A stretch of 64,000 bases of DNA from an uncultured Phycisphaerae bacterium (GTDB lineage: Bacteria > Planctomycetota > Phycisphaerae > UBA1845 > Fen-1342). Numbering within the stretch: position 1 is the stretch's first letter; every line of letters starts with the position of its first letter. Location: positions 1 to 64,000 of the forward strand of contig CALGJV010000009.1 in the NCBI GenBank assembly GCA_937928595.1, written 5' to 3'. A program made the position numbers and the translations under genes. Shown piece after piece: positions 5,952-39,098 of this stretch. The notes under the pieces are model-generated. The model did not search any database, was not told the DNA's origin, and was given only the letters and a program-made list of their open reading frames with translations.

Positions 5952-6371
5952 CTAGGCGCGCGGGGGTCGGAGCAACCCGTCGAGGCTGACCATCTCGGGG
6001 GCGGAGGGCTCGGCGATCGCCAGCGTCCCCGCCGGCGCGAAAGCGAACGCGACCACGACGGGGGTGGGAACCGTGCAAGGAGCCTGCCCGGTGGCGCAAG
6101 GCGCGGTGCACCCCGGCGGGCAGCATCCGTGTGGTTTTCCGGACGGGGCGTGCGGTTGCGAGGCAGGCGAAATCGGTCCTGTCGGTTCGGACGGAACGTT
6201 TTTCGCGCAGCAGGCGTGAGCAAGCTTGGCCGGTACCGGGTTGTCCGCGGCCGGAACTGTGCATTCTTCACAGCTATCACAACAGGGGAGAACACGAGAA
6301 GGCAAGACGATACTCAGCACCGCGACGGCGGCCAGAAGCGTTCCCACAAATCCTCGTTGCGGGCTGAACAT
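5952..6371 (-). CDS. Small Cys-rich secreted protein of unknown function
   Basis: This 139-residue product starts at the ATG at 6371 (an upstream in-frame start at 6428 is possible). A hydrophobic signal segment covers residues 10-27. Eleven cysteines follow between about residues 30 and 99, in the clusters PCCDSCEEC, HACCAKN and HGCCPPGCTAPC. A Pro/Ala-rich spacer and a final hydrophobic stretch (VVVAFAFAPAGTLAIA) complete it. No family was recognised. The clustered CC and CxxC pairs suggest disulfides or soft-metal binding in the envelope. It lies 186 bases upstream of the HlyD gene on the same strand and below a good promoter, so it is probably the first gene of the exporter operon. A metal-sensing or metal-buffering role is inference only. 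Confidence 0.55.
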   Translation of the reverse strand: MFSPQRGFVGTLLAAVAVLSIVLPSRVLPCCDSCEECTVPAADNPVPAKLAHACCAKNVPSEPTGPISPASQPHAPSGKPHGCCPPGCTAPCATGQAPCTVPTPVVVAFAFAPAGTLAIAEPSAPEMVSLDGLLRPPRA

Positions 6372-6433
6372 CGTGCGACCCAATCGCGCTCGGCGGCCCG
6401 GGGCCACCCTTAGCGACAACCATCCCACAGTCG

Positions 6434-6663: not shown

Positions 6664-6778
6664 CAGGAAAAATCAACGAAATCACGGGCGAGGCGCTGGA
6701 CTTCCGTTTCGGACCGGGCCTAACACCTAGTGAAACTCCTCCTCCTCCTCAGGGCCCGGCAACCGGGCCCCTTTTTTT
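6664..6778 (+). ncRNA. Candidate small RNA, copy 1, anti-Shine-Dalgarno type
   Basis: The unit begins with CAGGAAAAAT, which it shares with copy 2. It continues with a conserved GGCGCTGGACTTCCG block, a small hairpin (TCCG-TTT-CGGA), and a run CTCCTCCTCCTCCTC (6736-6750) complementary to Shine-Dalgarno sequences. It ends in an intrinsic terminator with a T7 run. No plus-strand gene follows for more than 2 kb, so it is not an obvious mRNA leader. A weak upstream promoter is possible (TTGACG 6622-6627, CTACGT 6645-6650, spacing 17). The design resembles in principle the CCUCCUCCC-motif RNAs described in alphaproteobacteria, but homology is not claimed. Transcription is inferred, not shown. Confidence 0.5.
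6752..6778 (+). terminator. Rho-independent terminator of RNA copy 1
   Basis: GGGCCCGG (6752-6759) pairs with CCGGGCCC (6763-6770) around a CAA loop. A C and seven T residues (6772-6778) follow. Confidence 0.8.
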
Positions 6779-6951
6779 GGGCCCCATTTCCTGAGCTGAC
6801 TGCGAGGCGCGCAGGGCCGAAGGCGGCTCCCACCGGCGGGAAGATTCCGGGGCCGGCGCAAATCGGCTCGCGAGCAGACCACGCCCACACGGATGCCCGC
6901 AACCGGCTTCTGCGAGACCCGCTGCCGAGGCTGTGCTCTCCATGGACGTCC

Positions 6952-7066
6952 CAGGAAAAATGTCGCCGGATTCGTCCTCGGCGCTGGACTTCCGGTTCCG
7001 GCCTGGCCTAAGACCTAACGATACTCCTCCTCCTCCTCCTCAGGGCCCGGATCCCGGGCCCTTTTT
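6952..7066 (+). ncRNA. Candidate small RNA, copy 2, anti-Shine-Dalgarno type
   Basis: This is a second unit with the same order as copy 1: CAGGAAAAAT at 6952, GGCGCTGGACTTCCG, a small CCGG/CCGG hairpin, GGCCTAAGACCTA, the run CTCCTCCTCCTCCTCCTC (7024-7041) and a terminator. Over the roughly 68-base core it differs from copy 1 by about eight substitutions and one extra CTC triplet. The hairpin persists despite substitutions in it, and the terminator loop sequence differs while the stem is unchanged. That pattern suggests selection on RNA structure. The next gene to the right is on the opposite strand, so a leader role is unlikely. Confidence 0.5.
7043..7066 (+). terminator. Rho-independent terminator of RNA copy 2
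   Basis: GGGCCCGG (7043-7050) pairs with CCGGGCCC (7054-7061) around an ATC loop, followed by five T residues (7062-7066). Confidence 0.8.
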
Positions 7067-7299
7067 GTTTCGTCCTAGAGAGAGCGCGGAGCAGCGCGTT
7101 GGCCACGGCTTCCACGTGCCGCCGGCACCGCCCAGCATCGGCGCCTGGACCGCAAGCCTTCGCTTCGTCGGCCAATCTCGGCCGACAGCTTCGACGCCGG
7201 CTTGGCAGCCGAGGCTCGGACGACAGCCGTGATCGCAGTCCGATAATAATAGATTTCTCAACCGGCTCTCATGCTCGGTCGCAGTCTCGACCCTCGCCC

Positions 7300-39024: not shown

Positions 39025-39098
39025 CGCGCCCGAGACGATTCGAACGTCCGACCTGCGGTTTAGGAAACCGCTGCTCTATCCTGCTGAGCTACGGGCGC
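39025..39098 (-). tRNA. tRNA-Arg (anticodon CCU)
   Basis: The minus strand folds as a full cloverleaf. The acceptor stem is GCGCCCG (39098-39092) with CGGGCGC (39032-39026), and G is the discriminator at 39025. The anticodon stem GCGGT/ACCGC holds the loop TTCCTAA, so the anticodon is CCT, reading AGG. The T arm has TTCGAAT. The 3' CCA is not encoded. It lies 31 bases downstream of the WecA-like gene on the same strand. Confidence 0.93.

Follow-up and report, generated by a model that had tools for sequence, protein, structure and literature searches.

Introduction

Two kinds of described system come close to the locus reported here: small RNAs (sRNAs) that carry anti-Shine-Dalgarno sequence, and promoters shared by the genes for exosortase substrates, the PEP-CTERM proteins. 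In Listeria monocytogenes the LhrC1-5 RNAs block translation at the Shine-Dalgarno (SD) sequence, with the surface protein LapB as a target (PMC4132741). The SmelA075/SmelA099 and CcsR-like RNAs of CIN1 loci carry a repeated CCUCCUCCC anti-SD motif and occur in several copies (PMC3927594, PMC10253847), and the loops of AbcR-type RNAs also carry anti-SD sequence (PMC3927594). Control of PEP-CTERM genes has been ascribed to sigma-54 with PrsK/PrsR, through a motif found only in Proteobacteria, and the paper that defined the PEP-CTERM/exosortase system left its control outside that group open (PMC1569441). Here we describe two homologous units with (CUC)n runs in a 64,000-nt stretch of DNA from an uncultured Phycisphaerae bacterium (contig CALGJV010000009.1, positions 1 to 64,000; hereafter, the window). 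We propose that they probably encode a multicopy trans-acting sRNA that would block translation of PEP-CTERM mRNAs. The two units, a promoter-like box pair, terminators, homologues and an association with SD sites can all be read directly from the sequence. Our full-text literature search turned up nothing published on sRNAs that act on PEP-CTERM genes, nor on the control of these genes in Phycisphaerae; one candidate match, PMC3333781, concerns other sRNAs.

Two homologous units with CUC runs and terminators

Comparison of the window sequence with itself showed two homologous units on the + strand, 288 nt apart. A sequence-only reading of this DNA had already described two such units, with (CUC)5 and (CUC)6 runs and strong terminators, and this was borne out by two direct repeat blocks, one between 6692-6750 and 6980-7038 (59 nt, 86% identity, spacing 288) and the other between 6736-6778 and 7027-7069 (43 nt, 88% identity). 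When copy 1 was used as the query in a BLAST search of its own genome it matched copy 2 at E=4e-19, and the pair is therefore not due to chance. In copy 1, an A tract (AAAAAT, 6668-6673) is a candidate UP element, as A/T tracts recur 5' of TGGA in the homologues. It is followed by a −35-like upstream box, TGGACT (6697-6702; position weight matrix [PWM] score 21.3), whose TGGA hardly varies, if at all, across 34 aligned instances, and by a −10-like downstream box, CCTAAC (6719-6724), located exactly 18 nt past TGGA. The predicted sRNA of about 49 nt (6730-6778), placed from the promoter with its start good to within a few nucleotides, contains a (CUC)5 run of 15 nt (6736-6750), which is predicted to be unpaired and is complementary to GAGGAGGAG SD sites, and a predicted intrinsic terminator (6752-6778) made up of a GC-rich hairpin (6752-6770) and a T run. 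Copy 2 has the same layout, with the upstream box TGGACT at 6985-6990 (PWM 15.5, the second of two sites in the window), the downstream box CCTAAG at 7007-7012, identified by box alignment and PWM, a predicted sRNA of about 50 nt at 7018-7067, a (CUC)6 run of 18 nt at 7024-7041, and a predicted terminator at 7042-7067 (GC-rich hairpin 7042-7062, then a T run).

The sequence-only reading had taken each unit to be an RNA of about 115 nt with a small internal hairpin kept in both copies, and here the analysis departs from it. The two copies have no internal hairpin in common: units of 117-122 nt fold differently 5' of the terminator, and they fold barely better than shuffled sequences (z of −1.8 for copy 1 and −1.2 for copy 2). 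The 5' half (TGGACTTCC...GGCCTAA, including GGCGCTGGACTTCCG) behaves as a promoter and not as part of the RNA, because its boxes keep a spacing of exactly 18 nt in 34 instances and because it also precedes RNAs lacking a CUC run and protein genes, as described below. Since the 5' half behaves in this way, transcripts should start near 6730 and 7018, and each is predicted to be about 50 nt long and to consist of an unpaired CUC run and a terminator hairpin. These shorter predicted transcripts fold in just that form, with z of −2.5 for copy 1 and −3.4 for copy 2.

CUC triplets are also leucine codons, and a run of them ahead of a terminator might belong to a leader-peptide attenuator controlling a downstream gene; copy 1 can indeed be read as GUG AAA (CUC)5 from 6730. 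In copy 2, however, the run is not preceded by any in-frame start codon, the runs of the homologues lie in differing frames or lack a start, and the overlapping open reading frames (ORFs) have no Pfam match. Moreover, the terminator is followed by no gene on the same strand; next comes either another promoter or a gene on the opposite strand. With no conserved in-frame start codon, leader-peptide attenuation was ruled out, and we hold it to be extremely improbable.

The CUC run matches the Shine-Dalgarno sites of PEP-CTERM genes

The genome that contains the window has 43 PF07589 matches, and 12 of its first 29 GGAGGAG-N2-9-ATG sites are PEP-CTERM starts, most of the others being implausible gene starts. 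With genes called by simple scripts and start codons picked by their match to the 16S tail, a choice biased against the claim, a (GAG)n match of at least 7 nt was present upstream of the start in 15 of 26 PEP-CTERM genes and in 1 of 114 others (p=2e-12). Complementarity of the CUC sRNA to the SDs of a defined mRNA set is thus above chance. The preference had the same direction in six further genomes of the family (p from 2e-4 to 0.05). Matches between the CUC run and GAGGAGGAG SDs span 8-11 nt, and predicted pairing energies agree with the preference for PEP-CTERM SDs; all of the shuffled CUC runs (60/60) paired less well. A PEP-CTERM-like protein ending in LTPEPAGLALLALATLLRRR, encoded at L217:1514-2116 (+) behind a AGGAGGAG SD, is missing from the PF07589 matches listed.

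A general anti-SD sRNA, repressing many mRNAs with strong SDs, would produce a similar association if PEP-CTERM genes simply had the strongest SDs of any class. Predicted pairing with the 16S tail also sets PEP-CTERM genes apart, with an area under the curve of 0.84 as compared to 0.89 for the sRNA. Against this explanation, the (GAG)n extension marks PEP-CTERM genes even when the canonical SD match is held to at least 5 nt: in the four sRNA-bearing genomes it was found in 31/63 PEP-CTERM genes versus 4/119 others (p=2e-13), and in three genomes without a detected sRNA the counts were 18/46 and 2/61. In 13 of 17 PEP-CTERM genes of the window's genome GGAGG is followed by A, a base that the 16S tail does not favour, and the promoter link described in the next section does not depend on SD strength. 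We therefore regard a general anti-SD role as doubtful.

The TGGA-N18-CCTA box pair also precedes PEP-CTERM genes

In all homologues TGGA (rarely TAGA) lies exactly 18 nt from CCTA (rarely a CTCTA-like box), while the letters in between drift, and 29 instances of the box pair could be aligned free of gaps. A/T tracts upstream of TGGA are most frequent at −17 to −12 in the homologues and become more frequent again around −28 to −25; copies 1 and 2 have their tract at the farther of these two positions. A PWM built without sequences from the window's own genome gave exactly two sites scoring above 9 on both strands of the 64-kb window, and these are the two units. The same box pair precedes RNAs that have no CUC run and are clustered beside moxR in relatives. 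These features of the sequence indicate that TGGA-N18-CCTA is a promoter.

A promoter-only model yielded new sites in relatives, and 8 of the 9 protein genes examined behind them end in a PEP-CTERM signal, as judged by eye and in most cases also by TIGR02595. When seven family genomes were scored with leave-one-genome-out matrices over the 320 nt upstream of each gene and a cut-off of 9, sites were found for 15/122 PEP-CTERM genes as compared with 4/337 others (p=2e-6); of the latter four, two are sRNA promoters themselves, beside spurious ORFs. At PEP-CTERM genes the upstream box is often TTGAC instead of TGGA, and these variants are compatible with a sigma-70-like factor. An extracytoplasmic function (ECF) promoter label, favoured at first for the GGAAC-like boxes, was dropped on account of the TTGAC variants before PEP-CTERM genes. 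A KAP-type ATPase gene near the cluster of one relative, suspected from its N-terminus to encode a sigma factor, was ruled out as such by Pfam. The window's genome also has a promoter site scoring 17.8 located 40 nt 5' of a non-PEP-CTERM gene starting MHDQRLDRLAKVVVHYSVGV (L043, G000:C11:154907-154932, minus strand).

Homologues in related genomes

When 61 genomes were searched at the DNA level, matches came from the same family; this was followed by a pattern search and then by a sequence model made from 18 copies, with reversed-pattern controls near zero. Of 27 Phycisphaerae genomes belonging to the family, 14 yielded the CUC RNA, representing 11 of 24 genera, with E values from 6e-13. Across the order, outside the family, the fixed-spacing pattern occurred at chance level only. 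The strict pattern had 27 matches in 84,980 species genomes, 5 of them in Phycisphaerae metagenome-assembled genomes, and these 5 were the only sites with a strong hairpin and T run after the match. A free-spacing pattern, TGGA-N-GGCCTA, gave no excess over its control genome-wide, so that the boxes carry information only when their spacing is fixed. A looser pattern, applied to 13 genomes in which no sRNA was apparent, matched in three, which is below the control, and no terminator was seen at two of these sites. The third site is a 15-nt CUC run in the 3' untranslated region of a PEP-CTERM gene, between the stop codon and the terminator, in a genome without a detected stand-alone sRNA (G022; L374:1460-1530, minus strand); this is a single case.

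The homologues take two forms, a one-run form of 45-69 nt and a two-run form of 82-98 nt with a hairpin between the runs, and in the predicted folds the CUC run is unpaired, lying between or before hairpins. The sequence-only reading suggested that the run length is tuned, which may be so, but the first runs of the homologues, of roughly 8 to 18 nt, follow no rule that we could discern. In seven sequences of the two-run form, 98% of the cells of the terminator stem are paired, with changes on both sides at one pair, and 89% of those of the inner hairpin, with both-side changes at two pairs; slid controls gave 30-64%. Because there are only seven sequences, we take this covariation as modest evidence. 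The description in the sequence-only reading of homologous small RNAs with an anti-SD run in a planctomycete (Phycisphaerae) is supported, and there are relatives in other genera and compensatory changes in the terminators. With Rfam 15, no family reached the gathering score over 6730-7067, the sole match in the window being a tRNA at 39025-39098, and only a tRNA reached it in a scan of the locus of one relative.

Two or three similar copies in a genome would also be expected of a repeated DNA element without RNA function. The layout, however, is kept across genera despite diverged spacers, the promoter spacing is fixed, the terminator stem changes on both sides while remaining paired, and no mobile-element signature was seen at the loci examined. 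These properties make such an element a very unlikely explanation.

Neighbouring genes and co-located RNAs

The twin units are intergenic, with an HlyD-type efflux locus on one side and a gene for a DUF900 hydrolase on the other, both on the minus strand. Adjoining the HlyD-type gene is a 158-aa ORF (5952-6428, minus strand), rich in Cys and His and with a signal-like N-terminus; it has no Pfam match and is possibly a metal-handling protein. A third copy of the unit in the same genome, on the minus strand at G000:C7:119133, adjoins a moxR-type gene, and just downstream of this third copy is an RNA with the same kind of promoter at G000:C7:118928-118962 (L053:6962, minus strand) that belongs to the second of two RNA types found beside moxR in relatives. 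The first of these types, (a), has one or two hairpins with the loop A(C)GGGAGCC and a terminator, and the second, (c), has several hairpins with the loop CUGGCUCCCCA; both share the promoter. Loci with such RNAs are L054:4171 and 4682 (+), L055, L057, L058, L065, L124 and L161, and no Rfam match to them was found in the loci searched. The (a) and (c) loops are complementary over 7 nt, and the two RNAs may for that reason kiss.

Several relatives cluster the CUC RNA with GGGAGCC-loop RNAs and the GGCUCCCC-loop RNA, all behind the same promoter, and one might suppose that the CUC RNA, instead of repressing mRNAs, is the partner of these RNAs, for example titrated by or titrating the GGGAG loops. 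The twin copies in the window, however, have neither an (a) nor a (c) neighbour, and CUCCU can form no more than about 5 bp with GGGAG, a weaker pairing than that with GAGGAGGAG SDs. We consider a partnership of this kind quite unlikely to be the function of the CUC RNA.

A proposed brake on PEP-CTERM translation

Our preferred explanation is translational repression of PEP-CTERM genes. Each unit would be a stand-alone gene, with its own TGGA-N18-CCTA promoter and terminator, for an sRNA of about 50 nt whose unpaired (CUC)n run pairs with (GAG)n SDs, in this genome almost exclusively those of PEP-CTERM genes. Pairing at the SD would block 30S binding on this class of mRNA. In relatives some PEP-CTERM genes are driven by this same type of promoter, so the sRNA would be a brake within the regulon. 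The transcription of the units, their start sites, base pairing in vivo, repression and its physiological sense are all parts of this proposal that we infer from sequence. The role of trans-acting repressor of translation put forward in the sequence-only reading is thus plausible, whereas its other suggestion, a sponge of a regulator, found no support.

Several observations weigh against this proposal. The (GAG)n SD, as the general anti-SD explanation would also have it, is present in family genomes without a detected CUC sRNA, and co-evolution of the two by presence and absence is a trend only (31/65 with the sRNA, 18/58 with none detected, p=0.07). An outgroup genome, too, shows more favourable pairing energy for its PEP-CTERM genes. 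PEP-CTERM SDs are stronger in general, so that the SD association may reflect high expression. Most PEP-CTERM genes of the window's genome are preceded by a weak promoter of this type or by none, and shared promoter control is therefore shown mainly in relatives. The sRNA may exploit a pre-existing style of SD instead of having shaped it.

We suggest more tentatively, and as a somewhat less than even prospect, that the (GAG)n SD of PEP-CTERM genes serves as a class "address" which is read by a dedicated (CUC)n RNA, present in several copies and driven by the same type of promoter. If this is true, a variant of the SD itself would mark a functional gene class and be read by a matching RNA, and a single RNA of 50 nt would set how strongly some 40 surface proteins, an entire class, are translated. 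The sequence pattern suggests a dedicated RNA switch for the PEP-CTERM class, and the promoter motif, the sRNA family and the target gene set are now defined precisely enough for testing.

Comparison with known systems

By analogy, the CUC RNA would work in the manner of LhrC and of the CCUCCUCCC RNAs of Alphaproteobacteria, though it could not be assigned to a known family. With LhrC it would share an SD-directed block of translation and a surface-protein target; LhrC differs in its UCCC motif, its control by the LisRK two-component system and its occurrence in Firmicutes, and the part of the LhrC work used here describes no promoter common with the target class (PMC4132741). The CUC run contains UCC repeats but no UCCC. 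The CCUCCUCCC RNAs are likewise multicopy, and their anti-SD repeat is nearly identical in sequence. Their motif, however, lies in hairpin loops, whereas the CUC run is unpaired in the predicted folds and so is not loop-borne. CcsR is linked to alternative sigma control by RpoHI/RpoHII (PMC3927594, PMC10253847), and the CcsR RNAs share a single operon with a DUF1127 gene and are released from it by RNase E processing, whereas each CUC copy has a promoter and a terminator of its own; no DUF1127 match was found in overlapping or neighbouring ORFs of the window locus, those below 80 aa having been only partly scanned.

The AbcR1/AbcR2 RNAs of rhizobia resemble the twins, by description, in being a neighbouring pair of homologous trans-acting sRNAs, and differ from them in sequence, lineage and regulator (LsrB) (PMC8844928). 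The sigma-54/PrsK/PrsR system resembles the present case in placing exosortase substrates under a shared promoter class-wide (PMC1569441). Unlike sigma-54 promoters, the TGGA-N18-CCTA box pair does not have the −24(GG)/−12(GC) pattern, and the arrangement proposed here would add an RNA arm to such control.
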